NCBI GenBank assembly: GCA_022728415.1
Contig: JAIJJM010000009.1
Coordinates: forward strand, 1-18,606
Origin: Collinsella sp.
GTDB lineage: Bacteria; Actinomycetota; Coriobacteriia; Coriobacteriales; Coriobacteriaceae
DNA length: 18,606 nucleotides
Direction of reading: 5' to 3'
Shown here piece after piece: positions 1,057-18,006 of the stretch; positions within the stretch are counted from its first letter, which is position 1; every line of letters starts with the position of its first letter. Below the pieces are notes generated by a model, which was given only the letters and a program-made list of their open reading frames with translations, was not told where the DNA came from and ran no database searches. A program made the translations under genes and the position numbers.

Positions 1057-1134
1057 CGTGGGCCGTGCCGGCGCGTGGTGGATGCGCGGGCCCGTGTTTC
1101 CGGGCCGTGGAGGCTTGTGATGAGGGAGGCTGTG

Positions 1135-1782: not shown

Positions 1783-1787
1783 GCCGT

Positions 1788-1803
1788 CCGGCCCGTTATC
1801 GGC
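1788..1803 (+). repeat. 16-base intergenic direct repeat, copy 2
   Basis: Second exact copy of CCGGCCCGTTATCGGC (first copy 1041-1056), six bases after the preceding stop codon. GGCCCGT inside it (1790-1796) can pair with ACGGGCC at 1816-1822, so it may form the left arm of a hairpin just before the next ribosome binding site. Confidence 0.7.
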
Positions 1804-1851
1804 GTCGGGCGTCGTACGGGCCCGGTGGCGGTGGGGAAAGGAGGGTGAATC

Positions 1852-2190
1852 ATGACCATTATTCATCCAATCGCCGCCACCGCGTCCGATATCGCGCTGG
1901 CGTTGACCGACAACGACCTGTCCGGGTTCTCCGTGTCCCCGAACTGGACGTTCTTCCCGTTCATGAGCCTGGTGTCGAACATCGTGGGCGGCCTGTGGGC
2001 TTTGGGCATCTTCGTGGCGACGGCCGCGTGGATCATCGCCGCGTTCTCCTGGGTCGTGTCCAAGGCGATCCACAACAGCACGATGCAGCAGTACAGCGGC
2101 ATCGTGTTCGTGTGGATCGCGCTGGGCATGATGCTGCTCGGCTCGGCCATGGCGATCGTCAAGTTCGCGTCCACGCAGGCCCTGTTCTGA
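1852..2190 (+). CDS. Small two-helix membrane protein, pilin-like (VirB2/TrbC-like size)
   Basis: A 112-residue protein with an N-terminal polar stretch of about 36 residues, a hydrophobic segment at about 38-66, a short polar loop containing KAIHNSTMQQY, and a second hydrophobic segment at about 83-104. This size and two-helix layout match VirB2/TrbC-type conjugative pilins and small membrane subunits of Gram-positive transfer systems, but no diagnostic motif is visible and there is no clear signal peptide. The start is well supported: AAAGGAGG at 1837-1844 lies 7 bases before ATG. It sits between the two-helix protein and the VirB6-like gene, the usual place for such a subunit. A GC hairpin with a T-rich tail follows the stop. 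The membrane call is firm; the pilin assignment is a guess from size and context. Confidence 0.8.
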   Translation: MTIIHPIAATASDIALALTDNDLSGFSVSPNWTFFPFMSLVSNIVGGLWALGIFVATAAWIIAAFSWVVSKAIHNSTMQQYSGIVFVWIALGMMLLGSAMAIVKFASTQALF

Positions 2191-2217
2191 CCTCGGGGCC
2201 CGTCCCCTTTTCCCTCC

Positions 2218-2264
2218 GGGCCCGTCCCGCCGTCGGGGCGGGCCCTTTCCTTTTCTTGTTTTTC
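2218..2264 (+). terminator. Hairpin plus T-rich tail before the VirB6-like gene
   Basis: GGGCCCGTCCC (2218-2228) pairs with GGGGCGGGCCC (2235-2245), 11 bp with one G-T pair and a 6-base loop. The tail TTTCCTTTTCTTGTTTTTC (2246-2264) ends only eight bases before the GGGAGG of the next gene. It looks like an intrinsic terminator placed inside the gene block, so partial read-through may set subunit ratios. Confidence 0.7.
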
Positions 2265-2282
2265 CGTTGTTGGGAGGCTGTC

Positions 2283-3728
2283 GTGGGCGATGTCGTCGAG
2301 GCGGTGCTGCAGAAGCTGTTCCCGTGGATGCTGGATCCGATGGGCAAGGCGTTGCAGGGCATGATGGTGGGCGCGTTCTCGTCGACCGCCGGGTCCGTGT
2401 CGTACGCGGAGTGGAACGTGGCGATCACGGCTGCGAACAGGATCGGCTGGGTGATGGGTTTCGTGAACATGCTCATCTGCGCGGTGGGCGCGGTGCATGC
2501 GGCCGTGAAGGCCAGCCCGGCGGAGTCGGTCAAGTCGTTCGCGATGGCGGTGCTCGCCTGGCCGTTGACCGCGATCTGCGTGAGCGTGATGATCACGTGC
2601 GAGGGGATCGTGAGCCTCCTGTCCGCGAGGATCCTCGCGGTGGGCGCGGACACGACCAAGGGCCGGGGCATGGAGTCGATGGTGTCGGCCATGTTCAAGA
2701 AGATCCTGGAGCAGGCGTCCGTCCTGCATTCGCTGACGATGCTGCTCGTCTATCTGGTGTTGTTCGTGGGCGTGTTCCTCCTGTGCTGCATGCTCGCGGC
2801 CCGCACCCTGTGCCTGGTGCTGCTGGCCGCGGTCGCCCCCTTGCCGGTGATGAGCGCCGGCTGGAAGGCGACCCGGCCGGCGATGCGCCGCTGGCTTTCG
2901 GCCGTGGTGGGCGTGATGCTGGCCAAGCCGTTGGCCGCGCTGGTGATCACGGTCGGGTCGGCGCTGATGACCTCGCAGACCACGTCGGGCGTGGGCGAGG
3001 GCAGTTTCTGGGATCTGCTGGTCGGCGTCGCCGCGATCTACATGGCCTGCTATTCGCCGAAGATGATCATGCCGGTCGTGCAGTTCCTGGGCGACGACCG
3101 GAGCATGGGCATGCAGCAGGCCGCGAGCCAGGCGGGCCGGAACGCGCTGGTGACCGCGGCCCAGCTGACCCGGCAGGTCGTGACCGCGGCCGCCGGGGTG
3201 GCGACCGGCGGGGCCGCGGCGGCGGGCGTGCAGTTGCCCGGCATGGCGCAGGGCGGGCTGGCCGCCCTGACCGGCCAATGGGGGCAGGTCGGCGAACAGG
3301 CCGGAAAAATGCTCGCCGGCTCCAAGGCCGACGGCAAGGACAAGGATGATGGCGGCGGGGCCCGGGATTCCGGCGCCCATGCCGCCGACCCGTCGAAGGA
3401 CGACGGGTACGAGCCGCCGGTCTCCGCTCCCCCGGGCCCGGATGGCTCGGCCATTCCGTCGCCCGATGGCGCGTCGTCCGCCGGAACCGCGCCCGGCGGC
3501 GCCGGAGGGGACGGTGGCCGGGGCGTCGCGGGCCTTGACGGTTCGGACGGCTCCGACGGGATCGGCGGCGAGGGCGGCCTGGGCGGCGCCGGCGGCGAGG
3601 GCCGGACCGGATCGTCCGGCGCCCCGGGGTCTCCGGGCGATCCGGGGCTTCCCGGGATGCCCGGACCGGACGCGGTGCCGGCGCCCCCGGTCTCGCCACA
3701 GTCGCCGTCGGGCCCGGTCCTGGCCTGA
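2283..3728 (+). CDS. VirB6/TrbL-like polytopic conjugation protein with collagen-like tail
   Basis: A 481-residue protein likely to form part of the inner-membrane channel for DNA transfer. Hydrophobic segments are at about 54-75, 86-114, 149-170, 172-190, 205-228 and 243-267, the layout of VirB6/TrbL-type proteins. After the last helix come an Ala/Gly-rich helical stretch (275-345), a charged linker (346-378), a Pro-rich stretch and a Gly-X-Y tract at 405-462. The tract has 12 consecutive Gly-X-Y triplets, then a one-residue register slip, then 8 more. The start is GTG at 2283, with GGGAGG 5 bases upstream; it gives a sensible N-terminus (MGDVVEAVLQKLFPW). It follows a hairpin-T element and is followed by another. 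The family call rests on topology and neighbours, since these proteins are poorly conserved in sequence. The collagen-like tail is unusual for this class. Confidence 0.75.
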   Translation: MGDVVEAVLQKLFPWMLDPMGKALQGMMVGAFSSTAGSVSYAEWNVAITAANRIGWVMGFVNMLICAVGAVHAAVKASPAESVKSFAMAVLAWPLTAICVSVMITCEGIVSLLSARILAVGADTTKGRGMESMVSAMFKKILEQASVLHSLTMLLVYLVLFVGVFLLCCMLAARTLCLVLLAAVAPLPVMSAGWKATRPAMRRWLSAVVGVMLAKPLAALVITVGSALMTSQTTSGVGEGSFWDLLVGVAAIYMACYSPKMIMPVVQFLGDDRSMGMQQAASQAGRNALVTAAQLTRQVVTAAAGVATGGAAAAGVQLPGMAQGGLAALTGQWGQVGEQAGKMLAGSKADGKDKDDGGGARDSGAHAADPSKDDGYEPPVSAPPGPDGSAIPSPDGASSAGTAPGGAGGDGGRGVAGLDGSDGSDGIGGEGGLGGAGGEGRTGSSGAPGSPGDPGLPGMPGPDAVPAPPVSPQSPSGPVLA

Positions 3729-3742
3729 CTTATCGATGCGTT

Positions 3743-3795
3743 GCCGGGTGGCGTCCCCGTATGGGCGGGGATCGCGCCCGGCCCTTTTTTCTTGT
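3743..3795 (+). terminator. Hairpin plus T run before the SCO6880-like gene
   Basis: An outer stem, GCCGGG (3743-3748) with CCCGGC (3777-3782), encloses an inner TCCCCG/CGGGGA stem. A run of six T and TTCTTGTTT follow. The ribosome binding site CGGAGG starts a few bases later. The architecture matches the element at 2218-2264, suggesting a shared attenuation design. Confidence 0.7.
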
Positions 3796-3812
3796 TTGAT
3801 CGGAGGTTGCTG

Positions 3813-5282
3813 ATGGTGGATGCCGATGGCAGGGACGGCGGGGCGAGGGTGCCCACGGCGGCGTTCAGCCGCCTGTCGGCCACGAACGTCTTGTTCGGGT
3901 GGACATGGCCGCAGATCGGCGTGGGCCTGGCCGGCCTGGTCATGGTCGTGGGCGGCGCGGCGGCGGGCATGGTGCTGCCGTTGATGCTCGCGGGCGGCGT
4001 GGTCATGGCGTACGGGCTGATCCGTTACGAGGGGTTGAGCCTGATGGCGTGGACGTACGTATGGCTGGCGTGGCGGCGGCGTGTGCGCGACGGGTCGACC
4101 CGATGGTCGGCGAGCCCGCTCGCCTCGGGCCGGCCGGCGGGCGTGCTGGGCGTGTGGGGCCAGGTCGAGTCCCGGGCCCAGGTGGTCGAGGGGTCCGGCG
4201 TGGAGGTGGTCGGAACCCCGTTCCATGGCGCCTGCTACCTGTTCGACCCGGAACGCCGGCGGGCGACCGCGGTGCTCGCGTTGAAGGTCGAGGAGTGGAC
4301 GTTGAGCACGGATGCGTCGAAATCGTCGCGCGCGGCCGCCTTGAACGATCTGACCGCCCGTCTGGCGGACACGCCGGGAGTGGTCGAGCTCAAGGAGACC
4401 GCGCTCCTGCTGCCGGGAGCCGCGCCCGCGCCGGATCTGCCCGACGATGGCGGGTCGCCGGAGTGGATGCGCCGCGACATGGCGGAATTGTGGGCCCTGC
4501 CGGAGGTCATGACCCCGTTGGCGAACGTGAGCTACGTGTCCGTGACCTGCGACGTGGACCGGCTCAAGGGCGTGGACCGCGCCCGGGGCCGGCTCACGGA
4601 ACGCGATCGGGTCGGGGTCGCGTTGGGCGACCTGGTGAAGATGACCGTCGCCCCGGCCCTGGTCGAATGCGGGGCGCGTCCCGGTTCGGTGCGCTGGTGC
4701 GGACTGGACGACCTGCGCACGCTGATCCGGTCGGTTTCGGATCCGGCCGGCAACGCGGACCGTCCTCCGGTCACCCGCGACGAGCCGACGCTGGGCTGGT
4801 GCGAGGAGAGCCTCGACGGGGAGAGCGTGACCCTGGAATCGTGCGTGGCGCGCACCTGGTGGGTGACCCAGTGGCCCGACCGGCCCGTGCCGGCGGGCTG
4901 GACGCGCGACATCCTGCAGGGCGGCAGGATGATCGCCCTGACCCATATCTGGAGGCCCATGAGCATGGAGAAAAGCGAGAAGGACCTGCGTGACCGCGAG
5001 TCCAGCATCCTGCAGCGCGACACGTTGCAGAACCAGCGGAAACTGTCGCGCGACGAACGCCGTGAGCGCCGCGAGCAGCGGCAGCGAGAGGCAGAGCAGG
5101 ACGCGAACTGGCCCGACACCGACCATCAGGGGTATATCGCCCTGTTCGCCCCGGACCGCGACGCGCTGGCCGTGTTCGAACGCGACCTGCGCGTGCGCGT
5201 CGGCAAGTACCATCTGCGCCTGTCCGGCCTGCGCGGCCAGCAGCGGCAGGCGTTGACCGCGGTCCTGCCGCTGGGGTTGTGA
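3813..5282 (+). CDS. SCO6880/PrgI-like conjugation membrane protein
   Basis: A 489-residue protein resembling the SCO6880 family, found beside VirB4-type ATPases in actinobacterial conjugative elements. It has an N-terminal cytosolic stretch with LSATNVLFGWTWPQ, two close hydrophobic segments (about 33-52 and 54-70), then a basic WLAWRRRVRDG region and a large soluble part. A segment at 137-165 (CYLFDPERRRATAVLALKVEEW) and a region rich in acidic-basic pairs fit the family as I recall it. Residues 386-430 are strongly charged and probably coiled coil. I chose ATG 3813 because CGGAGG sits 6 bases upstream; an in-frame TTG at 3741 would translate the upstream terminator. The stop overlaps the start region of the next gene (TGA 5280-5282, ATG 5285), so translation is probably coupled. 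The family name is from memory; topology and position are seen. Confidence 0.65.
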   Translation: MVDADGRDGGARVPTAAFSRLSATNVLFGWTWPQIGVGLAGLVMVVGGAAAGMVLPLMLAGGVVMAYGLIRYEGLSLMAWTYVWLAWRRRVRDGSTRWSASPLASGRPAGVLGVWGQVESRAQVVEGSGVEVVGTPFHGACYLFDPERRRATAVLALKVEEWTLSTDASKSSRAAALNDLTARLADTPGVVELKETALLLPGAAPAPDLPDDGGSPEWMRRDMAELWALPEVMTPLANVSYVSVTCDVDRLKGVDRARGRLTERDRVGVALGDLVKMTVAPALVECGARPGSVRWCGLDDLRTLIRSVSDPAGNADRPPVTRDEPTLGWCEESLDGESVTLESCVARTWWVTQWPDRPVPAGWTRDILQGGRMIALTHIWRPMSMEKSEKDLRDRESSILQRDTLQNQRKLSRDERRERREQRQREAEQDANWPDTDHQGYIALFAPDRDALAVFERDLRVRVGKYHLRLSGLRGQQRQALTAVLPLGL

Positions 5283-5284
5283 CC

Positions 5285-6082
5285 ATGGGCGCGCAGGGCC
5301 AGGAGGACTGGTTCGACGAGGTCATGCCCGGGTTGGACGCCGTGCGGCCTGGTGGGAAGCGGCGTTTTCCGTGGCCCGGCCGGCATGGGAAGGACGACGG
5401 GGACGAGGCCGAGGCCCGCACCAGGCCCCGTATCGGGGTGCGTGTGGGCGTGGCGACGGTGATCGTCACGGGTCTCATGGTCACGGCCGGGCTGACTGCG
5501 GGCATGGTCTCCGCGAACCGGCGCGAACGGCTGGCCGATGCGTCGGCGGCGTGCGAACGGTCCGCCCGGGCATGGTCCGCGGGATCGGCCGAATGGGGCC
5601 GTGACCGCGACCGGATCATGGGATCGGTCGACCTCGACGCGCTGCGCGCCACGGACCCCGATATGGCGGGCTCCCTCGAACGGCTTTCCTCCGACCCGGC
5701 CACGCCGGCCGGCTGCACGGCCGGAGGCGACGCGGCAACGCTCGACGCGGACGCGAAACGCATCTCCAAGGCCGCCGACAGGCTCGCGAAACGTTCGGAA
5801 CGGCTGGAAAAGGCCGTGGCGAAGGCCGGCCAGACGGTCGGCGACGCCGAATCGTCACGGTCCAGGAGCCGGCTCGAACATGCCGTGGCCGGCGCGCGGG
5901 GCCTGCTGGCGGGGAGCACGGCGGACCAGTACAAGGTGCCGTACCTGTACCGTCGGCTCGAACAGCTCACGGAACAGGCGGCGGGGCTGCTCGACGACGG
6001 GTCCGCGTCCCCGGCGGACATGGACCGGCTCTCCCAGGGCATCGACTCCATGGTCTCCTCGCTCGCCTCCGGCACGCGATGA
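5285..6082 (+). CDS. One-helix extracellular coiled-coil protein, paralogue of the one at 11905
   Basis: A 265-residue protein with a charged cytosolic N-terminus (about 1-48), one membrane helix (50-76), and a helical extracytoplasmic part. Cys90 and Cys144 lie 54 residues apart outside the membrane and may form a disulfide. A coiled-coil stretch at 150-185 is followed by ESSRSRSRLEHAVAGARGLL and a second helical repeat. The same order, Cys spacing and ESSR...LLA.S motif recur in the protein at 11905. I chose ATG 5285 over the in-frame GTG at 5279, which overlaps the previous stop (GTGA); both imply coupling to the SCO6880-like gene. There is no strong Shine-Dalgarno site, which fits re-initiation. 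Its role is unknown; position suggests a transfer-apparatus accessory or a contact factor. Confidence 0.75.
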   Translation: MGAQGQEDWFDEVMPGLDAVRPGGKRRFPWPGRHGKDDGDEAEARTRPRIGVRVGVATVIVTGLMVTAGLTAGMVSANRRERLADASAACERSARAWSAGSAEWGRDRDRIMGSVDLDALRATDPDMAGSLERLSSDPATPAGCTAGGDAATLDADAKRISKAADRLAKRSERLEKAVAKAGQTVGDAESSRSRSRLEHAVAGARGLLAGSTADQYKVPYLYRRLEQLTEQAAGLLDDGSASPADMDRLSQGIDSMVSSLASGTR

Positions 6083-6157
6083 CGGGCCGCCATACGGTTA
6101 TCGGTCCGGCGCACGCGTGTACGGACAAACAGATCAGGAAACAGGAAGGAATCGGTC

Positions 6158-6232
6158 ATGCCGTGTCGGTCAGAGCGTTCCGGACTCATCGAACGCGCCA
6201 TCCTCGCGCGATCAATGGGGGCGGGCCGATGA
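6158..6232 (+). CDS. 24-residue possible leader peptide
   Basis: A short open frame starting MPCRSERSGLIERAIL with a strong AGGAAGGA (6143-6150) 7 bases before ATG. Its TGA (6230-6232) overlaps the ATG at 6229 of the next small membrane gene as ATGA. The good ribosome site and the exact overlap suggest it is translated and feeds ribosomes to the next start. The peptide itself resembles nothing I know. Confidence 0.45.
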   Translation: MPCRSERSGLIERAILARSMGAGR

Positions 6233-6393
6233 TGCACCTCATACTCGTGATCGCCGTCGTTTTCGTTTTCGCCGCGTCCTGTCTGCTGACGTTCGGCCTG
6301 TGCCGTGCGGCCACGCGCCGCGACATGCTTGAGGCCCGTTGGCGTGAGGAGTCGGCCGGTTCCGTGGGTGAGGAGAGCCATGAGAGCGCATGA
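6229..6393 (+). CDS. Small single-pass membrane peptide, 54 residues
   Basis: This starts MMHLILVIAVVFVF and has one hydrophobic segment at about residues 2-25, followed by a basic turn (CRAATRRDM) and an acidic tail (EESAGSVGEESHES). The topology is probably N-out with a short cytosolic tail. The ATG at 6229 overlaps the stop of the upstream 24-codon frame, so it is probably translated by coupling; no strong ribosome site of its own is visible. A longer frame from ATG 6079 would add 50 residues. I rejected it because it would translate the TTATCGG spacer motif and has an unprotein-like composition. The function is unknown; small membrane peptides of this kind are common between conjugation genes. 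Confidence 0.6.
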   Translation: MMHLILVIAVVFVFAASCLLTFGLCRAATRRDMLEARWREESAGSVGEESHESA

Positions 6394-6731
6394 AACGCTT
6401 GAGCGTGCCGGGCGTCATGGCGGCTTCCCGGCCCGTGGTTCCGCTTCGGGCCTGTTGGCGGCCTGCCCGTCGGACGGCAGCCACGACTTCTACCTGTCGA
6501 TGATGCTCGACGTTCCCGTGCCGCGCGTGCCCGTGCTGCGCGCACGTCTGCAAGACTCCCGCCGAGGGGCGCAACGCGCATCCGACGCACAGGAAGCTGG
6601 CCGCGTGGTGCAAGTGCAGCGTGGGCACGGTCAAACGCCATTTGTCATGGCTGGAAGGGGGACGTGTGGTGATGGAGCAGCGGTTCCGTCTGCGTGACGG
6701 TTCGCCGGTCGTGCCGCGCTGGCGCCGTTGA
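6380..6731 (+). pseudogene. Broken helix-turn-helix protein (frame change near 6540)
   Basis: A well-supported start (ATG 6380, GAGGAG just upstream) opens a frame that looks protein-like to about residue 55 (DGSHDFYLSMMLDVPV...) but then becomes odd. From about 6555 a different frame (+1) encodes a clear winged-helix/helix-turn-helix stretch: GRNAHPTHRKLAAWCKCSVG, then TVKRHLSWLEGG and VVMEQRFRLRDG, ending at TGA 6729-6731. That frame has a stop at 6501-6503 and no start codon before GTG 6621, so it cannot make the domain alone. The simplest reading is a regulator or replication-type protein inactivated by a single-base indel. Programmed frameshifting or a sequencing error would give the same picture. 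The domain is of the kind that binds DNA, with HRKLAAWCKCSVGTVKRHLSWL as the turn region (split here only in description). Confidence 0.6.
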
Positions 6732-6800
6732 CGATATAGGCGTCCTTCGTGGGTGTCGGCGTCGGCGATCATGTGCTTTTCCCGTTCAGGGAGGTTTCGT

Positions 6801-7322
6801 ATGGCTGATGCTCCTGCCGGGGTCCGTGCCGGCAAGGCCGGGGGTCCGCATGGGTTGCGGGTCCTGTCCCCGGCCGATCCGGGGTATGTGGAGTGGTGCC
6901 GGTCCGGCATGCCCCAGAGGATCCGTCTGCTCAAGCTCGCCGCCGAGAAACGCCGCCGGATCGAGCAGGGCGTGATCTGTCCGAAATGCCATAGGCGCCG
7001 GGTCCGTGCCGGCGACACGTTGTGCGCCCAGTGCCGTCACTTGGAGGATCTGCCCCGCTGCCGGGAATGCGGGAGGCGGACGAGCCGTCCCGTGGACGGG
7101 TTGTGCGCCCGATGCCTGAAACTGGTCCGGGAACAGGCCAGGCCGATGTGCCCGAAATGCGGCAGGTGCCGGTGCCTCGAGGGCGAGGACATGTGCGGCA
7201 GGTGCCGGGCGCACCGTGTGTTGCCATCCTGTTCTCGTTGCGGCGCGCCGCGGCGGAAGGGCTCGCCGGACGGGTTGTGCGGCCGATGCCGGCAGCTCCT
7301 TTCGGGGAAGGCGAGGACATGA
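6801..7322 (+). CDS. Protein with four tandem zinc-ribbon (CxxC) units
   Basis: A 173-residue protein of unknown function. After a basic helical N-terminus (about 35-56), four similar units each contain two CxxC pairs: C60/C63 with C75/C78, C87/C90 with C102/C105, C117/C120 with C132/C135, and C144/C147 with C160/C163. The pairs lie 12-13 residues apart and units repeat about every 27-28 residues, so four zinc ions could be bound. Unit 3 carries extra cysteines at 123 and 125. Short basic linkers suggest nucleic-acid or protein binding, by analogy with other zinc ribbons. I chose ATG 6801 because GGGAGG lies 6 bases upstream. Its stop overlaps the next start as ATGA, so the two products are probably made together. 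Confidence 0.75.
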   Translation: MADAPAGVRAGKAGGPHGLRVLSPADPGYVEWCRSGMPQRIRLLKLAAEKRRRIEQGVICPKCHRRRVRAGDTLCAQCRHLEDLPRCRECGRRTSRPVDGLCARCLKLVREQARPMCPKCGRCRCLEGEDMCGRCRAHRVLPSCSRCGAPRRKGSPDGLCGRCRQLLSGKART

Positions 7323-7627
7323 ATCTGGCGGACGTGGCCTTGGAGGCCCTGTACTTGCTGGGTGTACTGATGTGCTGCGCGCTCCTGTCCCGCGAGGAGG
7401 GCTCGCGCGAGGGCCTGGGTTCGCGTCGCGCCCGCCTGTTCATGCTGGCGTTGGCGGTGGAGGCGATGCAGGCGGGGTTGGGTTCGCTCGCGTTCCGGGA
7501 GCCGCGGGGCGCGCCGTTCGCGCCCTGGCAGGCGTTCGACCTGACAGGAGCGGTACTGGCGGACCTGTTCCTCGCACGGGCCCTGCTGCGCGGCGACGGC
7601 GGGGCTCCCGGCCCGGACTACCGGTGA
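7319..7627 (+). CDS. Small membrane protein coupled to the zinc-ribbon gene
   Basis: A 102-residue protein beginning MNLADVALEALYLLG with about three hydrophobic segments (residues 5-24, 40-58 and 72-91), separated by an Arg/Glu-rich loop (SREEGSREG) and a Pro-rich loop. The ATG overlaps the preceding TGA as ATGA, and GGGGAAGGCGAGG upstream provides a ribosome site. It may anchor or pair with the zinc-ribbon protein, but only the gene overlap supports that. It converges with the minus-strand gene, with 13 bases between the two stops. I recognise no family. Confidence 0.65.
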   Translation: MNLADVALEALYLLGVLMCCALLSREEGSREGLGSRRARLFMLALAVEAMQAGLGSLAFREPRGAPFAPWQAFDLTGAVLADLFLARALLRGDGGAPGPDYR

Positions 7628-7640
7628 CGCGTACCGCCGG

Positions 7641-7994
7641 TCATTCCTTCCGTTCGTGTTCGTGTTCCACCTCGAAGCGGATCTTGAGCCGCGTACGGCC
7701 GCGGCGGGCATGGCGCGCGATTCGGCTTTGTCTGCCCTTTCCACCCTCCCGGACGTTGTGGCGTGCGTGGCGTCCCCGCGCACGGACGCGGGCAAGAAGA
7801 TTTCTCGCGGCCGCCATGACGCGCAGGAGCGACAGCGCCACGAGGCAGCCGATGGCGAGCAGCGCCACCAGGTCGCGGTTCCGGGCGGCGGGCAGGTTCT
7901 GGATGATTTCGAGGAGGTCGAGCATGGCCTCGATGGTGTTTGCGATGTATTCCATGTGCCGCTGTATGCGTCCGACGCCCCTGCTCATGTTCAC
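7641..7994 (-). CDS. Small membrane protein with basic tail, opposite strand
   Basis: This is the only gene I accept on the minus strand. It encodes 117 residues: an amphipathic N-terminal helix (about 14-34), one hydrophobic segment (42-60), and a long Arg/His-rich tail that ends EVEHEHERKE. Codon third positions are strongly G/C in this frame, which favours it over the overlapping plus-strand frame (7656-8015), whose product is low in order and has no good ribosome site. The start is uncertain: the upstream ATG at 7994 has only a weak purine-rich site, and the Met at residue 14 (MEYIANTIEAML) is a good alternative. Its single position against the general direction suggests independent control. 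The function is unknown. Confidence 0.55.
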   Translation of the reverse strand: MNMSRGVGRIQRHMEYIANTIEAMLDLLEIIQNLPAARNRDLVALLAIGCLVALSLLRVMAAARNLLARVRARGRHARHNVREGGKGRQSRIARHARRGRTRLKIRFEVEHEHERKE

Positions 7995-8248
7995 GTCCGA
8001 TTCCCGGTCCGATGACGGCCGGGAACGTTATGGTCGTCCACCCGCCGAAATCGGTGCCGCCGCGGGTGATCGCGCCATGGGGAAGGAACATCCTGAATGA
8101 TTGGCCATATTGGATCGGAGTGCGGGAGGAAGGCCCTGGACTTTCTGGCCGTCGGGCGGTCCCGCCTCACTGCATGTCGGCTGCGCGGCCGGCGGGCTGC
8201 ATCGTCCGGCTCACACTGGACCAGAACCGGACATGCCGTCGAAACCCC

Positions 8249-8254
8249 TATAAT
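8249..8254 (+). promoter_or_regulatory. -10 box candidate for the methyltransferase operon
   Basis: A perfect TATAAT lies 34 bases before the methyltransferase ATG. No convincing TTGACA-like -35 box occurs 16-19 bases upstream, so activation by a factor or a weak promoter is possible. The rest of the 293-base spacer (7995-8287) holds no gene that I can support. Confidence 0.5.
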
Positions 8255-8287
8255 TGTCATGTCGTCAGAACAAGCCCGGAGAAGGAT

Positions 8288-9181
8288 ATGCCATCAATGC
8301 TTACAGTCGCGGAGACGGGGAGCTTGTCCGTTCCTCTCGTCTCCAACCACGATGTGGCTTCGCCGTTGAGATATCCCGGCGGCAAAAGCGTGCTGTCCGG
8401 GTACGTCGCCTCGCTTATCGATGTTCTCGGCATTCGTGACGTCACGTATGTCGAACCCTATGCCGGGGGTGCCGGTGTCGCTCTGCGTCTGTTGAAGGAC
8501 CACAAAGTATCGAAGGTAGTTATCAACGACTACGATCCCGACGTGTTCGCGTTCTGGAACAGCGCTGTCAATGATTCGGCTTCGTTCCTGGAACGATTCG
8601 ACCGGGCGGAACCCACTATCGAGGAATGGCATAGGCAGAAACGCATCATCGCGGACCCTGCCAGCGAGCTGGACAGGGGGTTCGCGTTCTTCTTCCTCAA
8701 CAGAACCAACAGATCCGGCGTGCTGAACGGCGGCGTGATCGGAGGATTGAAACAGAACGGTAGATACAAGGTTTCGGCGCGGTACAACAAGGCCTCGCTA
8801 AGACGAAAACTTGAATTTCTCGGGGAACACGCCGACTCCATCGAGGTCAGAAACGAGGATGGCAGGGCCGTGGTCGAACGATTCGTCGGATTCCCTGAGG
8901 CGTTCATCTATGCGGATCCGCCTTACGTGGAGAAAGGCGGCAGCCTGTATATGAACGCCTTGGACGATGAGAGGCACAGGGAGCTCGGAAATCTGCTGAA
9001 CAATCATGCCGACTCCCATTGGATGCTCACCTATGACGATACGGCGTTGATACGCGAGCTGTACGGGGAACGGTACGGTGGCCTGTTTCCTTTGCAATAC
9101 AGCGCCTCCGCCCGGCGCACCGCGAACGAGCTGATGATCTTTTCCGATACACTGGGCAAGGCCGCAGCCCACATGCACTGA
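8288..9181 (+). CDS. DNA adenine N6-methyltransferase, D12 class (Dam-like)
   Basis: A 297-residue enzyme that transfers a methyl group from S-adenosylmethionine to N6 of adenine in a DNA target site. Motifs in D12-class order are visible: RYPGGKS (28-34), VEPYAGGAGVAL (55-66) forming the cofactor pocket, NDYDP (80-84), FFFLNRTNRSGVLNGG (134-149), and catalytic DPPY (210-213). Length fits the family. Start ATG 8288 has GGAGAAGG a few bases upstream; ATG 8297 is a minor alternative. The ParB-fold gene begins 15 bases after its stop, so they form an operon. GC is visibly lower than in the conjugation genes, suggesting separate acquisition. No restriction endonuclease of a known type is adjacent, so it is either an orphan enzyme or part of a methylation-linked system with the next gene. 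The recognition sequence cannot be read from the protein. Confidence 0.93.
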   Translation: MPSMLTVAETGSLSVPLVSNHDVASPLRYPGGKSVLSGYVASLIDVLGIRDVTYVEPYAGGAGVALRLLKDHKVSKVVINDYDPDVFAFWNSAVNDSASFLERFDRAEPTIEEWHRQKRIIADPASELDRGFAFFFLNRTNRSGVLNGGVIGGLKQNGRYKVSARYNKASLRRKLEFLGEHADSIEVRNEDGRAVVERFVGFPEAFIYADPPYVEKGGSLYMNALDDERHRELGNLLNNHADSHWMLTYDDTALIRELYGERYGGLFPLQYSASARRTANELMIFSDTLGKAAAHMH

Positions 9182-9196
9182 CGCGAAGGAGAGGAC

Positions 9197-10597
9197 ATGG
9201 CGAATCCGTCCGGGGAAAAGAATATCGGCCCATGGGAGGGCCAGCAGGTGGAGTACATTCCGCTGGATGATCTGGTCCTGTGGACGGAGAATCCCCGCGA
9301 TCCGCTGGATGGCGATTACACGAACGACGATGTCATCCGTCGCGCAACCGACGGACGCAACGACAAGCAATGGCAGTTGTCCAAGCTGTCGAAAGAGATG
9401 GGCGACAGATTCGATTTGAGCGAACTGCCCACGGTATGCAGAATCGATGACGGACCGAAGTACAGGGTATACGACGGCAACAGGCGTGTCATTCTGGCGA
9501 TGCTCCGCAAGGCCGGTCTCACTACTGAGGGCCAGCAACAACTGGTGCCTCCGGATTTCCCAGACCCCATCCCATGCAACGTGTGCGACGAAGAGACCGC
9601 GCTGGAGAATGTGGAACGCAAACACAGAGGTAACGGGAGCTGGAAACAGTACGAGCGGGACCGTTTCATGTTCGACTACAGGGGAGGCCCGAAAACCGTT
9701 CTCATACGGCTGGAGGAGCTCATCAAGGCGGTGACGAAATGGCCCGCCCTGAACATGAGATACGTCGAAGATGACGTCTTCAACAAAAAGCATCTCGAAG
9801 AGATGGGTCTTCTTCCCGACGAGCCGGACTTCGGGGTTCCTCTGGAGCTGCTGGAGGAGCTCGTGGAGGCCGTCGCCGACAAACTGGATAATGAGCTGAA
9901 CACGCGCAACGCGCGAAACGACCCCGCCAGCGTCCTACCGGGCGAACTCATGGACCGTATCAGAGAAGCACGGCACCGCCGACCGGCGGGCGAAAAGGCC
10001 GACGGACGGGAAAGGGAACTTCCCTCCGACAATTCCGAGCCTCCATCGCAATCCCATGGTGGTCTTGGCCGGGATGATGTGCTTCGCCCCGATACGTCCG
10101 GGACACTCCCCCACACCGATGCATCCGCCAGGAGGCGAAGGGGACGCACCCGTCAGGTCAAGCCGGCATCCATTCCCGTGTTCGGGAACCCTTCGGGTCT
10201 ACGGCTGCAGACGGGAGACGTCAACAACATGTATCGCACTTTGGAGGAACTGTGGAACATGTATGCGCGCGGAGGCATGCGGAATGCCGCCGCGTTCGTG
10301 CCGATCTTTCGCATGGGGCTGCGTCTGCTGATCGATACGGCCGCCATGGAACGATGCGGCGGATTGGACAGATATGTGGGCGAGTATGCCGGGGAAGCGA
10401 AAAAACGTCTCAGGCAGGCGGCAAACAGCGCTGATCTCGTTACCTTTATGCGCAACCAGGCGGTGTCGCCGGAAAATCTGCTCCGACTGCTCCAGAACGG
10501 CGCACATGCGTATACTTCGACCGGGAACAAGGAACAAGCCCTAGCCATGAGTATCCTGATCGGGGAAATGCTTTCGATCAGCCACGGACGTCCATGA
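9197..10597 (+). CDS. ParB/Srx-fold protein with DGNRR motif and HEPN-like C-terminus
   Basis: A 466-residue protein. Residues 19-105 look like a ParB/sulfiredoxin-fold domain: YIPLDDLVLWTENPR (20-34), a KLSKEMGD helix, and YRVYDGNRRVILAML (89-103). The DGNRR motif resembles the DGQQR/DGNRR signature of ParB-like nucleases and NTPases. A conserved-looking stretch at 137-160 (ENVERKHRGNGSWKQYERDR) could be the next ParB box. A low-complexity charged linker covers about 255-325. The C-terminal 345-466 is all-helical, with FVPIFRMGLRLLIDTAAMER and LLQNGAHAYTSTGNKEQALA, resembling HEPN-type domains of abortive-infection proteins as I recall them. It follows the methyltransferase by 15 bases with GAAGGAGAGG. 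The nuclease or toxin role is inferred; a partitioning role is unlikely without a ParA partner. Confidence 0.75.
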   Translation: MANPSGEKNIGPWEGQQVEYIPLDDLVLWTENPRDPLDGDYTNDDVIRRATDGRNDKQWQLSKLSKEMGDRFDLSELPTVCRIDDGPKYRVYDGNRRVILAMLRKAGLTTEGQQQLVPPDFPDPIPCNVCDEETALENVERKHRGNGSWKQYERDRFMFDYRGGPKTVLIRLEELIKAVTKWPALNMRYVEDDVFNKKHLEEMGLLPDEPDFGVPLELLEELVEAVADKLDNELNTRNARNDPASVLPGELMDRIREARHRRPAGEKADGRERELPSDNSEPPSQSHGGLGRDDVLRPDTSGTLPHTDASARRRRGRTRQVKPASIPVFGNPSGLRLQTGDVNNMYRTLEELWNMYARGGMRNAAAFVPIFRMGLRLLIDTAAMERCGGLDRYVGEYAGEAKKRLRQAANSADLVTFMRNQAVSPENLLRLLQNGAHAYTSTGNKEQALAMSILIGEMLSISHGRP

Positions 10598-10751
10598 TTC
10601 GGGGGGAATGGCGTTTCATGGGACACAAGACTGTGGCAGCCATTTACCAGCAAATCGCCGTGACGGGCTGATGCTTCTCTATAAACCGGGTCGCGCGTTC
10701 ACGGACGGTTCGGAATCCGGCCATCGCGCACAGAGTTTTTCACTCCTCATC

Positions 10752-10859
10752 AAGCCGATACGGGGCACGTTCGGCGTGCATCATGGCATGAGACGTCACA
10801 CTCTCATGGGACGGGAAGGAATTCCGGCTGTCGGAGGACAATCGTTTTCGTATCGGCTT
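10752..10859 (+). ncRNA. Possible structured RNA or leader before the CPBP gene
   Basis: AAGCCGATACG (10752-10762) is perfectly complementary to CGTATCGGCTT (10849-10859). Between them lie three small hairpins in series: GCACG/CGTGC around TTCGG (10765-10779), CATGAGA/TCTCATG (10787-10808), and TCCG/CGGA (10823-10835). Together they could form a multi-branched fold ending 21 bases before the CPBP ATG. The rest of the 283-base spacer (10598-10751) shows no gene I trust. I do not recognise a known RNA family. Chance pairing is possible in GC-rich DNA, but the 11-bp outer stem is notable. Confidence 0.35.
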
Positions 10860-10880
10860 TCCACATGAGAAGGGGGAAAC

Positions 10881-11726
10881 ATGGAACACGGGGATGATGG
10901 TCGTTCGCGGGATGATGTCATGGACGGTCCCGCATTGCCGCCGGATGAGCCTGGGCGGATACTCGATCCGTTCAGGAAGGCCTTCGTTTGGACAAGAACG
11001 CGTCTGAACCTGTCGGGAGAGATTTTCGGCACACCGCAGTGTCCTGTCGCGCGGATCCTCGCACCCGTCCTGACCGTTCTGGGAGCTTCGATCCTCGTGT
11101 GCGATCTGTTCGAGAGCCCGTGGAGGGAGGTCCTGGCCTTCGCAGCTCTGGCGGCCGCCTTGTTTTCCGTGGGATACAGGCCGCATCCGCTCGACGCGTT
11201 GAGGAGGCCCGGCAAGCCCATGCGGTGGTTCCTCTGTCTCGGATGCGTCCTCGTCCTGCCAATCGTGACCTTCTATGCGTCGGCACTGCTGGTTTCCCTC
11301 ATACCCGACACGTCGGAGAACGCGGGTATCGCCGCGACGGACACGTTCGGCGAGTATGTGGTCATGTTCATCCAGATCATGGGCGAGGCGTGCCTGTCGA
11401 TTCTTCTGTTCGCGCTGCTGTATAAGGCCCTCAATCGGGCATGGGGCCGGTCGGATCCATGGGTCCGTTCCCTCGTCGCGTGGCTGGTTTCGGCCTTTCT
11501 GTTCGGCATGCTGCATCTGCCTACGTATAGATGGAATTTTCTGCAATGCTTGGTCATCTTCTTCTCGCTGTTCCTGGGATTCGCCGCGTTCGTCGCGACG
11601 CGCAGCTGGACGATTCTGTTCCTTTCCCATTTCCTGTACGACCTGCTCAGCAGGCCCCTGGTGCTGAATGCGTGCCGATACGCCGCCCTTCTGTGGCTCC
11701 TGGTCGCCGTGGCTTGCGTGTACTGA
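10881..11726 (+). CDS. CPBP (Abi-type) intramembrane protein with altered first motif
   Basis: A 281-residue multi-pass membrane protein with hydrophobic segments at about 57-76, 82-97, 115-142, 159-182, 197-216, 218-240 and 264-280. CPBP-family metalloprotease motifs 2 and 3 are present: F208xxxH212 in FLFGMLH, and H250xxxD254 in LSHFLYD. Motif 1, normally EExxxR, reads GEACLS (168-173), so the first Glu and the Arg are missing while Glu169 remains. The family includes CAAX-type prenyl proteases and bacteriocin-immunity proteins; an altered motif may mean a binding or immunity role without proteolysis, or a changed activity. The start is ATG 10881 after AAGGGGG. It lies downstream of the methyltransferase/ParB pair and a possible structured leader. 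Lower-GC composition than the surface genes suggests it belongs to the same cargo. Confidence 0.75.
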   Translation: MEHGDDGRSRDDVMDGPALPPDEPGRILDPFRKAFVWTRTRLNLSGEIFGTPQCPVARILAPVLTVLGASILVCDLFESPWREVLAFAALAAALFSVGYRPHPLDALRRPGKPMRWFLCLGCVLVLPIVTFYASALLVSLIPDTSENAGIAATDTFGEYVVMFIQIMGEACLSILLFALLYKALNRAWGRSDPWVRSLVAWLVSAFLFGMLHLPTYRWNFLQCLVIFFSLFLGFAAFVATRSWTILFLSHFLYDLLSRPLVLNACRYAALLWLLVAVACVY

Positions 11727-11727
11727 A

Positions 11728-11765
11728 GGGGAGCGCCGCCGGTCCGGCTTCCCCTTCCGCTCCCC
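11728..11765 (+). terminator. Inverted repeat after the CPBP gene
   Basis: GGGGAGCG (11728-11735) pairs with CGCTCCCC (11758-11765) and encloses GCCGGTCCGGC, so two nested stems can form two bases after the stop codon. There is no T run, so termination would be Rho-independent only weakly, or it may protect the transcript end. Confidence 0.45.
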
Positions 11766-11794
11766 CGATATCGGCGGATTGTCGGGTGGATGGC

Positions 11795-11884
11795 ATGCCG
11801 GCCGGCGGGATCGCCGGCCGTGGCATAGGATGTGTTCATGCGGACCGTTCCCCTCTCCCGGAAGGGGTGCCGGCGGTTGGTCCG
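11795..11884 (+). promoter_or_regulatory. Two-hairpin leader before the coiled-coil gene
   Basis: The first hairpin has ATGCC plus GGCCGGCG (11795-11807) pairing with CGCCGGCC and GGCAT (11812-11826) around a GGAT loop, 13 bp with a two-base bulge. The second has CGGACC (11841-11846) pairing with GGTCCG (11879-11884) and an inner CCCCT/AGGGG. The ribosome site follows directly (GGAAAGGAACGAGG). It could be a 5' leader controlling translation; chance pairing at high GC is the alternative. Confidence 0.35.
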
Positions 11885-11904
11885 ATGATAGGAAAGGAAC
11901 GAGG

Positions 11905-12882
11905 ATGAGCGAAGAGGACAAGGTGCCGTCCCCGGACGGCGCGGGCGTGGTGCCCGAGCCTGAGACGGTTCGCAGGCGTCCGAAGTGGCTGGCACCCGCG
12001 GCCGTGGGTTGCGTGCTGGCGCTGCTCGCCGTGGGCGGCGTGGTCGGCTGCCGTGTGTGGTCGGCGCGCGAACTGGCCGAGGCGAGGGAGGCTTGCGCCG
12101 TGGCGGCGGACGGGGTGCGTGGCGCGGCGAACGACTACAACGCGCTCGTCAACGGGAAGGCCGCCGACGCCTCGGCAGTCACCGCCGACCAGGTGAAGGA
12201 CGCGAGGACCGTGGACGCGCTGGCCAAGGCGTTGAAGACCACGGTGCCCGAATACGAGGGGTGCGTGGCCGGTTCCAAGGCCGGTTTGGACGAGGCGACG
12301 TCGAAGCTCGACAGGCAGGCCGCCTGGTACAAGACCCATGCCGCATCGCTCGGGAAGGCCGTCAAGGCGGTGGAATCCTCGAGGCTCGACAGGACGGTCG
12401 AGGACGCGGAGAAGCTGCTCGCCGATTCGAAGGGCAGGGTCGCCGACGAGAAGACCCGTAGCATGTTGGAGCAGGCCATCAAGGACAGGGACGCGGACGC
12501 GATCGGCGAGGCCGTGAACGCGGTGGACGGGTCGGTCAAGGCCAAGGCGAAGGCCGACGCCGACGCGAAGGCCAGAAGGGAGGCCGAGGAGAAGGCCCAG
12601 GCCGAACAGGAGGCCCAGGCGGCGGCCGACGCGGCGGCGGCCCAGGCGCAGGCGCAGCAGCAGGCCCAGTCCTATGGCGGCGGCTACTCGTACGGCGGCG
12701 GCACCGGCTACACCGGTGGAGGCTACACCGGCGGCGGCTACACCGGCGGAGGCACGTACACGCCGCCCGCGACCGGAGGCGGCAACGGTGGGGGTTCCGC
12801 CTCCAGCGGACCAATCAGCGGAGGACACGGATGTACTACTGATTGTCCTCCACCATCAAGCGACGGTCTGATTCATCATTAA
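11905..12882 (+). CDS. One-helix coiled-coil surface protein with Gly/Tyr repeat tail
   Basis: A 325-residue protein: cytosolic acidic N-terminus (1-27), one membrane helix (28-49), then a helical exterior. Cys64 and Cys120 are 56 residues apart, close to the 54-residue spacing in the protein at 5285, and both proteins share the EGC/AGCxAG context and ESSR...LLADS segment (here 157-175). A long Ala/Glu/Lys/Gln coiled coil (210-256) leads to a Gly/Tyr-rich tract of GGGYT-type repeats (258-285) and a Thr/Pro/Gly stretch. A C-terminal cysteine pair (C310, C314) ends the protein. The start ATG 11905 has GGAAAGGAACGAGG upstream. It precedes a strong terminator, so it ends its unit. No sorting signal is seen. 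Possible roles are cell-cell contact or envelope spanning, inferred from layout. Confidence 0.75.
   Translation: MSEEDKVPSPDGAGVVPEPETVRRRPKWLAPAAVGCVLALLAVGGVVGCRVWSARELAEAREACAVAADGVRGAANDYNALVNGKAADASAVTADQVKDARTVDALAKALKTTVPEYEGCVAGSKAGLDEATSKLDRQAAWYKTHAASLGKAVKAVESSRLDRTVEDAEKLLADSKGRVADEKTRSMLEQAIKDRDADAIGEAVNAVDGSVKAKAKADADAKARREAEEKAQAEQEAQAAADAAAAQAQAQQQAQSYGGGYSYGGGTGYTGGGYTGGGYTGGGTYTPPATGGGNGGGSASSGPISGGHGCTTDCPPPSSDGLIHH
12820..12851 (+). repeat. Inverted repeat at the 3' end of the coiled-coil gene
   Basis: GGAGGACA (12820-12827) is complementary to TGTCCTCC (12844-12851), with a 16-base loop. It lies within the codons for the terminal cysteine pair. It may be part of the 3' end structure together with the two following palindromes. 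Confidence 0.45.
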
Positions 12883-12883
12883 C

Positions 12884-12900
12884 GACTATTAATAATAGTC
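12884..12900. repeat. AT-rich palindrome
   Basis: GACTATTA and TAATAGTC are 8-base inverted arms around one A, starting immediately after the coiled-coil stop codon. The composition contrasts sharply with the GC-rich surroundings. It may be a protein-binding site, a second stem of the terminator, or a recombination scar. Confidence 0.5.
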
Positions 12901-12903
12901 CAT

Positions 12904-12939
12904 AAGGGTCTTGCTCGAATTTCGGGCAAGACCCTTTTT
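12904..12939 (+). terminator. Strong intrinsic terminator
   Basis: AAGGGTCTTGC (12904-12914) pairs with GCAAGACCCTT (12926-12936), an 11-bp stem with an 11-base loop, and the descending arm runs into TTTTTATTT. This is the clearest terminator in the window. It separates the coiled-coil gene from the adhesin unit. Confidence 0.9.
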
Positions 12940-13030
12940 ATTTCCAAGTTCTCTTTTCCCTGTGTTTTTCCTGTGATATCGGTGTGGTTTTCCGGGGTGT
13001 GCGGGTGGGGGTCGTGGAGTCCGGCCTGTG

Positions 13031-13077
13031 GGACGGGTTCCGTGAGGGGCGGGAGAGGCCCGTCCTGTTGATCAACA
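13031..13077 (+). promoter_or_regulatory. Operator-like palindrome and hairpin before the adhesin
   Basis: TGTTGATCAACA (13066-13077) is a perfect 12-base palindrome ending three bases before the ribosome site GGAGGAG (13081-13087). Just upstream, GGACGGG (13031-13037) pairs with CCCGTCC (13059-13065). The palindrome resembles a dimeric-repressor operator; I cannot name the regulator. No strong -35/-10 pair is visible in the 12940-13030 spacer. Confidence 0.5.
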
Positions 13078-13093
13078 CAGGGAGGAGACCCTT

Positions 13094-16000
13094 ATGGGTT
13101 TTCGTCATGATAGGGCGTCGGCCGGGCGGAGTCATGAACCGCTCGCGCGTGGCGCGCATGGGGCGGGGCCGGCACGCACGGTGCTTGCCGGCCTGGTGGC
13201 CGTGGCCACGCTGGCCACGGGCGGCCTGGTGGCGTCGACCGCGTATGCGGGCGGCGCGGGAGACAACCGTCCGGGCGGCGCGACCGGCGGCCTTCCCGCG
13301 GGCATGTTCTGGCAGTACAAGGACGACGCGTCCGGCAGCTTCGGTCCGGCCGCGAACGCGGACGGCTCGCCGCGCATCGCGTCGGTGGAGGCCGCGTACA
13401 AGCGTGCCGGCGTGAGTGTGGTGAACGACGGCGTGTACGACGGGCCGGGGGCGATCCGCGATACGTTGCGGGGCGCGTTGTCGAAGTGCGTGGCCGGGTT
13501 CCGTCAGCGTCATCCGGGCGAGGGCGACGGCGACTGCCGTGTCGTGGGCGTGGGCTCGGTCGCGGGCCAGCAGGGCGGCAGATGGGTGTACAACGGGTCC
13601 GGCGGCTATTCGGCGTCCGAGTGGTACTCGTCCTGGGACTCGCAGATCAAACCGTATACATATAACTATGCCGGCACACAAAGCTACCGTACCTCAGATG
13701 GCTTTGATGATGATCCGTCGAACAGCGTGGACAAGATCGCGTATTCGAACGTGGCTGCGGCCGGCGCGACGCCGAACCTGATCATCATCGTGCTGGACAA
13801 GTACCAGCCGAAGCCGCCGACCTATCATCTGAGCGTGAGCACGCAGGCTGCGGAAATGTCGGGCCAGTCGGGTGACACCAAGGACGCTTCGGACACGATC
13901 AGCCTGTCCACCGACGGGTCGAAGACCGAGAACGTGAACGGCACCGCGACCCTGCACTGGCGCGGCATCGACGGCACCGAGAAGACGGTGACGAAGCAGT
14001 TCACCGCGTCCAACAAGGGCAGCGCCACAGTGAGCGCGTCCTTCAAGGACATGGACGCCTCGTGGGAGTCGTGGCCTGCGGGCAAGCGCTGGTGGGACGT
14101 TGACGTGGCGAAGCAGGGCGGCATGGCCGAGGCGGTCTCCCACAAGGGAGAGAACGACGGCAAGGAGTCCGGCGAGAAGACCACCACCCCGCCCGAGAAA
14201 TGGCTGACCAACGGGGCCGGCGACACGGTGCGGGACGGCAACGACTCCATCGCCTCCGGCAGCCTGTACACCGCGCACATCAAGGCGCATTCCAACGCCT
14301 CCGGCAAGTTCTGGATCTACGACACGATCGACACCAGGGACGTGGTGATCGGCGGCACCGAGCAGGACGACGTGAGCAAGGTCACCGTGACCGACGCGAA
14401 CGGCAACATCGTGCCGGCGGACATTTCCATCGACGATTCCATCGATGGCAAGCGCGTGGTCAAGGCGCACGCCACCGCCCCGCATTCCGGCCTCTACACG
14501 CTGAACGTGCCACAGTCGGCCAAGCCCACCGGCGGCGACTACAAGATCAACGACGGTTCCGTGGCGTGCTGGAACGGAGACAACGGCACCGGCAGCCTGG
14601 CCGACTGCCAGACCGGCAACGGCGACGGCGTGGGCAAGGTCACGCCGACCCCGGACAAGGTGTGGGTGCTGGACGAGTCCGGCGCTCTCGTGGCCGAGGA
14701 CAAGCAATGGACCAACCAGCAGGGTGTCGATCAGAAGACGTTCCTCGTGGGCGACCAGGTGGGCGTCGTGGTCAACGGCAGCATTCCCGCGCATCTGCTC
14801 AACCCGTTGGCGTCCTATTCCATCACCGATGATCTGACCGGTTCGATCCAGTGGATCGACTGGAAGTCCGGCAAGGTGTTCGTCGATGGCGAGGACGTGA
14901 CCGCGAACTTCGACATCGTGATCGACCAGAAGGCCAGGACCGCGACCGCCACCGCGAAGGCTTCGTACATCGCGAAGACGATGTTCAAGAACAGCGCGAG
15001 CAAGGTCAAGTTCTACCTGACGGGCACCATCAAAAAGGGTGCCACCGAGGGCAGGAAGATCCAGCTGACCAACAAGGCGTACGAGAAGTGGAACAACGAG
15101 ACGCGGCCGACCAACGAGCCCCCGGTGTTCGTGTGGACCCCGAACCCGAACAAGGCGTGGGCCATGAAGGCTGACGGCAAGTGGCAGCTGACCGTCGATC
15201 CGGCCAAGAGCGACAAGGTGGGCGGCGACGACAAGTACTACCGTCTCGGCGACGAGGTGGCCGCGGTCATCTCCGGCACCCTGCCCACCGGATTGGGCCG
15301 CGTGCCCGAGATCGCGTGGACGGACGACTTCGCCAACGTCGATAGCATCCTCGATCTGAAGGACACCTCCAGCATCAAGGTCTACGAGCAGGACACCACC
15401 GACGAGGCCAACGCCGGCGTCAACGACCTGAACAAGACCGGCAGGGACGTGACCGACCAGTTCGACATCACCGCCGAGGGCACCAAGGTCACGGTCAGCG
15501 CGAAGGACTCCTACGAGGCCGCGCAGAAGGACCTGAAGACCGCGAAGCAGATCAGCGTCGTGATCCCCTTCGACGTGAACTTCGACACCAAGCAGCTGCT
15601 CGAATCCTACGGCAAGGCGGAGGGCGACGAGCTCAACACGTGCGTTGACCCGAAGGGCGACGACCTTGACAACAAGGGCGGCCAGACGGTCGGCGGCAGC
15701 ACGGTGGACACCAACACGCCGAAGATCTGCGTGACCGTTCCCCCGATCCACAAGCAGGTCATCGCGGAATCCTCCCAGGGCGGCGACCAGTCCAACATCG
15801 ACACCAAGACCGTGTTCCCCGGCCAGACCGTGGAATACACCGTGCGCGTGGACCCGCGGATCCCCGCGGACCAGGCGTATTCGGTGACCGCCATCAAGCT
15901 GAGCGACACCTATTCCGAGTACACCACCGCGAACAAGCAGACCCTGGAGATCACCGACCTGGGGACCGGCGGCATCATCCCGAAGAGCGCCTACAAGGTC

Positions 16001-17971: not shown

Positions 17972-18006
17972 CCCGACGGGGCCCGTCCGATGCGCGTCGC
18001 CGCGTG

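Follow-up and report, generated by a model that had tools for sequence, protein, structure and literature searches.

Positions 8288-10597 of an 18,606-nucleotide stretch of Collinsella sp. DNA (contig JAIJJM010000009.1; the whole stretch is referred to as the window) contain two adjacent genes, encoding a D12-class adenine methyltransferase and a 466-residue partner, protein A. Sequence comparison suggests that the pair belongs to the PD-λ-5 kind, a modification-gated defence, as a divergent form with two genes, and this interpretation was given a probability of about 0.58. It was built on the homology, adjacency and co-divergence of the two genes, the status of the pair as cargo and the conservation of its motifs. 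The type of system is already known through PD-λ-5. What is new is the branch to which A belongs, which is without a Pfam model, is taxonomically wide and has an OLD-family ATPase-TOPRIM gene in 16 of 58 loci.

The methyltransferase gene (8288..9181, + strand, 297 amino acids) starts with ATG at 8288, immediately 3' of GGAGAAGG, and its stop codon ends at 9181. The open reading frame of A (9197..10597, + strand) is preceded by AAGGAGAGG and follows on the same strand after a spacing of 15 bases (9182-9196). The methyltransferase was matched by the PADLOC model PDLC04018 (PD-Lambda-5_B) at 1.3e-94 over residues 23-290, by MethyltransfD12 (PF02086) at 2.8e-19 and by the adenine methyltransferase of PDB entry 7m6b at 2e-17, and was listed as a PD-Lambda-5_B-like D12-class N6-adenine DNA methyltransferase. 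It contains DPPY and VEPYAGGAG, which we take to be methyltransferase motifs. An earlier note, made from the letters of the window, had described a D12 adenine methyltransferase followed 15 bases later by a protein with the motif DGNRR, and both open reading frames were confirmed.

No Pfam model matched A. A protein search with A scored 7990 candidates and gave 1229 relatives, the best 120 of which were considered. Alignment A1 (85 rows) was composed of the window protein and 84 of these 120, leaving out 36 sequences (fragments, near-copies and some close relatives). Alignment A2 was composed of 25 of the 88 relatives from a search seeded with a Pseudomonas-phage PD-Lambda-5_A, together with five locus proteins. 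Comparison of A1 with A2 in hhalign gave 98.8% (E 4.8e-17) over about residues 17-242 of A, about half its length, and the N-terminus of the A family compared with the PD-Lambda-5_A N-terminus alone gave 98.7%. These alignments make A and PD-Lambda-5_A distant relatives. The comparison with PD-λ-5 was made with PADLOC models and database homologues rather than with the tested E. coli protein; a search for E. coli relatives by DNA similarity returned solely phage tail genes among the 10 of 57 records listed. A was divided into a ParB-like N-terminus (about residues 14-160; 9236..9676, + strand), a middle region in common with PD-Lambda-5_A, a polar linker and a C-terminal domain (about residues 325-466; 10169..10594, + strand).

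DGNRR occupies residues 93-97 of A and was invariant in 85 of 85 A-family sequences. GNRR of both A1 and A2 aligned with GERR of ParB, with the arginines of the P motif (GxRR) present. A ParB_N set was prepared from 28 of the 30 sequences returned from 20 of the genomes that carry the loci described below; three of the 28 lie under the Pfam cut-off, none is an A-family protein and three give the A2 model a weak score (12-15 bits). The PD-Lambda-5_A (A2) N-terminus matched this set at 96.2% (P 2.5e-9), and still at 92.3% (P 5.7e-7) when the 22 strongest ParB sequences were used; the A-family (A1) N-terminus matched the 28 sequences at 34% (P 4.3e-4). Neither the A1 nor the A2 score against the 28-sequence set was reached by any of 100 column-shuffled controls. 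PF02195 did not match A and was absent from the 25 families listed of the 64 matched by the 85 A-family members. Pfam scans gave scattered matches, the commonest family being found in 4 of 85 A-family and 3 of 31 C-terminal sequences. A PDB search with A2 returned a weak ParB-like match, 6ryk (E 0.0068), and PDB sequence searches with A1, A3 (the C-terminal alignment described below) and A4 returned nothing credible. The ParB likeness of the earlier note is thus upheld for the N-terminus mainly through kinship with PD-Lambda-5_A and through DGNRR, which together suggest a ParB fold for A, the direct match to ParB being weak. When the conserved arginine of the P motif is mutated in a ParB-like fold, nucleotide binding is reported to be lost (PMC12704722), and from its homology to the ParB/DUF262 class DGNRR of A is predicted to bind a nucleotide.

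The C-terminal domain contains R376-x3-D380 and GAH437. Within the A family R376 was found in 85/85 sequences, E or D at 380 in 85/85 (D in the window) and H437 in 84/85; the PD-Lambda-5_A counterparts occur in the same order (R365 in 28/30, E369 in 29/30 and H438 in 30/30), although the sequence around the histidine is GAH-Y in A and Y-V-H-N in PD-Lambda-5_A. PD-Lambda-5_A C-termini matched DUF4145 (32 sequences) at 94.3% (P 1e-7) and 92.8% (P 4e-7), and A-family C-termini combined with bridging relatives (alignment A3) matched it at 36% (P 3.8e-4). With the score of A1 alone, given below, four DUF4145 scores were obtained, and for each 0 of 100 shuffled controls was as high. PF05168 (HEPN) did not match the A family (P 0.28-0.38); PD-Lambda-5_A C-termini gave P 0.14 with the A2 set and P 0.046 with nine sequences, a score that 0 of 100 shuffles equalled. 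The remaining C-terminal comparisons, PF05168 set included, gave P 0.013-0.27, and none of the Pfam families or PDB chains listed was HEPN. A search for Abi_C (PF14355) gave no match in 20 genomes, nor in 14 controls. DUF4145 is counted in the HEPN clan and has been found fused to restriction proteins (Anantharaman 2013, PMC3710099). The C-terminus of A is plausibly HEPN-like on this evidence, the DUF4145/HEPN-clan likeness being weak for A itself. The HEPN resemblance proposed in the earlier note is supported only indirectly, through DUF4145.

Conservation of the adjacency in other genomes, a check the earlier note had suggested, was examined by scanning genomes with two peptide patterns, which gave 74 loci. 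A was taken as full-length at a minimum of 400 amino acids and 240 bits. By this test 58 loci contained full-length A, 4 a fragment, 11 a weak or partial A and 1 no A gene. A methyltransferase gene adjoined A or stood one gene off in all 58 full-length loci (57 strong, 1 divergent). It lay directly 3' of A on the same strand in 48, faced A in 3 and followed A after one intervening gene in 5; in L001 it lay directly 5' of A, as in the window, and in L022 the only methyltransferase was the divergent one (68 bits), 51 bases upstream of A. The pair was on one strand in 55 of 58 loci and A came first in 53 of these 55, whereas the methyltransferase comes first in the window, L001 and L022. Twenty genomes with full-length A (0.8-7.5 Mb) contained just 21 close methyltransferase homologues (E < 1e-40; 26 matches in all), and chance adjacency is therefore negligible. 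Gene-tree distances of 57 pairs plus the window pair were correlated with r 0.83; none of 2000 permutations was as high (maximum 0.40).

By record titles the loci belong to Bacteroidota, Actinomycetota, Pseudomonadota, Omnitrophota and Parcubacteria-type metagenome-assembled genomes, many being metagenome bins, and one metagenome-assembled genome of Pacearchaeota carries the full pair (L035). Three viral contigs carry A and the methyltransferase; two of these have identical scores and are possibly the same virus. A related methyltransferase was found in 320 phage records, from which 8 were fetched and the partner scanned in 6, giving 3 of PD-Lambda-5_A type and 3 of AAA/OLD type. PD-Lambda-5_A genes were clustered with an A-family gene and a single methyltransferase in L003 (772-2250) and L010 (7301-8626). 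In L042 an open reading frame that looks transposase-like by eye (1547-2854) separates the methyltransferase from an A gene of reduced length. In Vibrio phage ValB1MD-2 (L076, 2440-4879) a short ParB-like open reading frame and another one lie 5' of the methyltransferase, giving the look of a partner in two pieces, and an OLD-type gene faces the methyltransferase.

The window resembles a conjugative element. Upstream of the pair lie conjugation-type genes for a CHAP/SLT (transglycosylase) protein and an SCO6880-family protein, together with a TrbL-like membrane protein named by eye; downstream lie a gene for a CPBP-type protease and then one for an antigen I/II adhesin. The SCO6880-family protein of the window was matched in 10 of 189 genomes from the family of Bifidobacterium vansinderenii, three of the matches being strong. 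In the closest relative element, G261 (L199), the gene order is identical from the CHAP gene through the adhesin and the next gene, and in tblastn searches with the window genes the methyltransferase, A and the CPBP protein had no match there at E 1e-4, nor did the small open reading frames 6079 and 6305. The matches that border this gap are ~0.7 kb apart in G261 and ~4.4 kb apart in the window. Since a collinear element exists that does not carry it, the pair is accessory cargo, and the cargo status put forward in the earlier note was borne out. The pair was not found in two further relative elements, L200 and L201, in which fewer window genes match. Six of the 189 genomes matched A, two of them with the full-length protein and four weakly along a short segment; in the genus group full-length A was found in 1 of 9 genomes.

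Composition agrees with the placing of the pair, described in the earlier note as lower in GC than its flanks and lying between transfer and surface genes: GC was 58.3% in the pair, 69.8% in positions 1-8000 and 66.6% in positions 11866-18606. Third-position GC was 0.70-0.71 in the pair and 0.91-0.93 in three flanking genes. Among pair-sized sliding windows 44 of 1630 were equally GC-poor, and the minimum begins at 8491, within the same stretch. The CPBP/Rce1-like intramembrane protease gene (10881..11726, + strand; PF02517 4.5e-5, 24.1 bits, cut-off 22.4) shares the low GC and the cargo interval, which comprises the methyltransferase, A and CPBP genes (7628..11865, no strand assigned) and was delimited by tblastn against L199.

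PD-λ-5 has been tested against phages and described as combining restriction-modification with abortive infection (RM+Abi; Vassallo et al. 2022, PMC9519451). Nine of the ten phages in a test panel changed in plating or plaque size under the E. coli system, and the test host was without the mrr region (PMC9519451), which would fit an active PD-λ-5 methyltransferase. No mechanism for PD-λ-5 is given in the parts of the literature surveyed. The window pair is like PD-λ-5 in that it consists of two adjacent genes with the same methyltransferase family, a homologous ParB-like N-terminus and middle region in A, and C-terminal R-x3-E and H in the same order. The earlier note had suggested a non-canonical restriction or abortive system; a modification-linked two-gene defence candidate is what stands, and it is not of a new kind, the likeness to PD-λ-5 extending to both genes. 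The location differs: the window pair is cargo of a conjugative-type element, and PD-Lambda-5 has been reported mostly from prophages, also from an integrative and conjugative or integrative and mobilizable element (PMC10482375, PMC12824646).

Several results weigh against the interpretation of the pair as a modification-gated defence of the PD-λ-5 kind. A matched the PADLOC PD-Lambda-5_A model PDLC03998 at just 5.8e-6, and this match was confined to residues 18-162, the first third of the protein. When the six distant ParB sequences were removed and 22 kept, the A1 N-terminus matched ParB_N at 3.8% (P 0.011). Comparison of the C-terminus of A with that of PD-Lambda-5_A was weak alone and reached a moderate 71% (P 3.7e-5) via bridging sequences, and A1 C-termini alone matched DUF4145 with P 0.023. 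The pattern Rx4-6H, usually read as the mark of active HEPN RNases, was present at the conserved histidine in just 7/84 A-family and 0/30 PD-Lambda-5_A sequences, whereas DUF4145 is described as mostly conserving it (80%; PMC3710099); the strict pattern occurs, at any position, in no more than 8 of the 32 DUF4145 sequences compared, and its absence therefore does not exclude a DUF4145-like domain. Shared descent can contribute to the correlation of r 0.83. Annotated plasmid and phage records were searched without finding A, and in the phage stretches L075 and L077 the methyltransferase was accompanied by an OLD-type gene, with A not found.

If the pair is of the PD-λ-5 kind, the D12 methyltransferase would mark adenines of host DNA and A would be a sensor-effector whose ParB-like N-terminus, with DGNRR, senses both DNA and a nucleotide. 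A would be switched on by DNA without the mark, or when the methyltransferase is lost in an infection, and the C-terminal DUF4145/HEPN-clan-like domain would then act, an attack on RNA or the holding of an effector dimer being its likeliest roles. The outcome would be restriction together with growth arrest. We infer in this way the self-marking, the sensing, the effector chemistry and defence in this host. With the same methyltransferase, the near-invariant R96, R376, E/D380 and H437 and the series of two-gene and three-gene forms, both the effector and the rule that separates self from non-self can be tested directly.

The third gene of the three-gene form, seen in 16 of the 58 loci, encodes an OLD-family protein with an AAA_15 ATPase and a TOPRIM-like E..D and DGD pattern, the TOPRIM being read by eye. 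It lies before A in 7 loci (L004, L011, L016, L019, L024, L047, L049), between A and the methyltransferase in 4 (L045, L048, L053, L055), after the methyltransferase in 3 (L037, L039, L057) and on the opposite strand, next to a facing methyltransferase, in 2 (L050, L052). Counting only loci having > 1.7 kb on both sides, the gene was found in 13 of 44. The same OLD family adjoins the methyltransferase in the phage stretches L075-L077 and also in L186/L187. Its product is plausibly a nucleic-acid-cutting arm of the system. The window has the two-gene form, with no OLD-family gene, and A would therefore have to supply the effector there.

A bolder and distinctly tentative proposal is that the branch of A is a separate, widespread immunity class in which a ParB-like nucleotide switch joined to a HEPN-clan domain reads the adenine-methyl marks made by its own methyltransferase, acting alone, as in the window, or commanding an OLD-family ATPase-TOPRIM nuclease. 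If true, one sensor would serve exchangeable effectors in two-gene and three-gene forms, with a range that takes in Bacteroidota, Actinomycetota, candidate phyla and an archaeal assembly, and such a class would be poorly covered by present defence-gene models. The missing Pfam match and the weak PADLOC match of A suggest that annotation tools cover part of the family poorly. No name for the branch or for the three-gene form was found in the searched portions of the openly licensed literature, which is weak evidence of absence.

The pair might instead be a two-gene type II-like restriction-modification system in which A is an endonuclease that cuts unmarked DNA, with no abortive or RNA step, and its C-terminus serves dimerisation or target recognition. 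The near one-to-one pairing and co-divergence with the methyltransferase would be expected of such a system, and nuclease-active ParB-superfamily proteins are cited in PMC10853773 and PMC12839542. We nevertheless consider it unlikely: no recognisable endonuclease domain was present in A or in the CPBP neighbour, the other open reading frames of the window having been partly scanned, the OLD-type gene of relatives would be redundant, and the published description of PD-λ-5 includes abortive infection (PMC9519451). PADLOC and PHROGs were searched with the methyltransferase, A and CPBP proteins, and Pfam or NCBIfam with these and several further proteins of the window; as in the earlier note, no classical restriction enzyme emerged from these scans, which covered some and not all of the proteins encoded in the window.

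Still less probable is an addiction module resembling toxin-antitoxin, in which A becomes lethal once the methyltransferase is gone, the element is thereby retained and phage defence is secondary. Carriage as cargo of a conjugative-type element and the rare, patchy occurrence in Bifidobacteriaceae (full-length A in 2/189 genomes) agree with this, whereas the related E. coli system defends broadly against phages (PMC9519451) and genes for OLD, a second ParB, PtuA and type I specificity proteins adjoin some relatives. That A acts as a ParB-like factor in transcription or partition and regulates the methyltransferase or the element, the pair managing the element's DNA, for example by shielding it from host restriction on transfer, is very improbable despite the ParB-like domain and the site beside transfer genes, given pairs in unrelated phyla, other defence genes at some loci and specific homology to a phage-defence protein.

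The PD-λ-5 interpretation was also set beside other known systems. A ParB-HEPN fusion was already on record in 2013, and Saro_3948, which by description has a ParB-like fold and a HEPN domain in one protein as A may have, is of this kind; the PrrC-like back-up idea for HEPN domains tied to restriction-modification would fit the pair (both PMC3710099). By motif and class only, the SspE/GmrSD/DndB class (DUF262, DGQQR; PMC13251355, PMC12839542, PMC12704722) resembles A in its ParB-superfamily domain with a D-G-x-x-R motif, its adjoining or reading of DNA modification and, as predicted for A, its nucleotide binding or hydrolysis; A differs in having no HNH domain, and the pair is linked to adenine methylation, not to phosphorothioate or glucosylated bases. 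The PADLOC candidate PDC-M38A (PDLC04607, 715 positions) was matched by ParB-like proteins at ~59-311 and by OLD-type third genes at ~576-673. It looks like a ParB-OLD fusion, and the combination is therefore not wholly unseen; it is one fused protein where the loci have separate genes, window A is not among its matches, and it is unnamed in any paper of the literature searched. The third gene of relatives (AAA_15 ATPase, TOPRIM-like) also matched the PADLOC models of the OLD-family proteins Gabija GajA, PARIS AriA and Septu PtuA weakly to moderately, and differs from those systems in standing beside a methyltransferase and a ParB-like gene.

Other genes were observed near the pair in relatives. 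A second, shorter ParB-like gene lies 3' of the pair in L028 (8125-9237), with relatives in L027, L035, L040 and L058; in L028 it is followed by a gene for a 303-residue protein with no Pfam or PADLOC match (9250-10158), and the two occur after the pair also in L027, L040 and L058. A NotI restriction endonuclease family protein (PF12183, 24.6 bits, cut-off 22) is encoded directly before A in L002 (5134-5976). A PtuA gene is near the pair in L033, and a type I specificity gene in L035 and L045.

In the window a scan for promoters and terminators was near chance (1 promoter found against 1.3 expected, 5 terminators against 2.6). The SCO6880-family transfer gene of a relative element (L191, G259) has one in-frame stop. 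The adhesin gene of the window (13094-17971) encodes a 1625-residue antigen I/II-type protein with isopeptide domains, which has relatives in the bifidobacterial elements L199 and L200 and a short match in L201.

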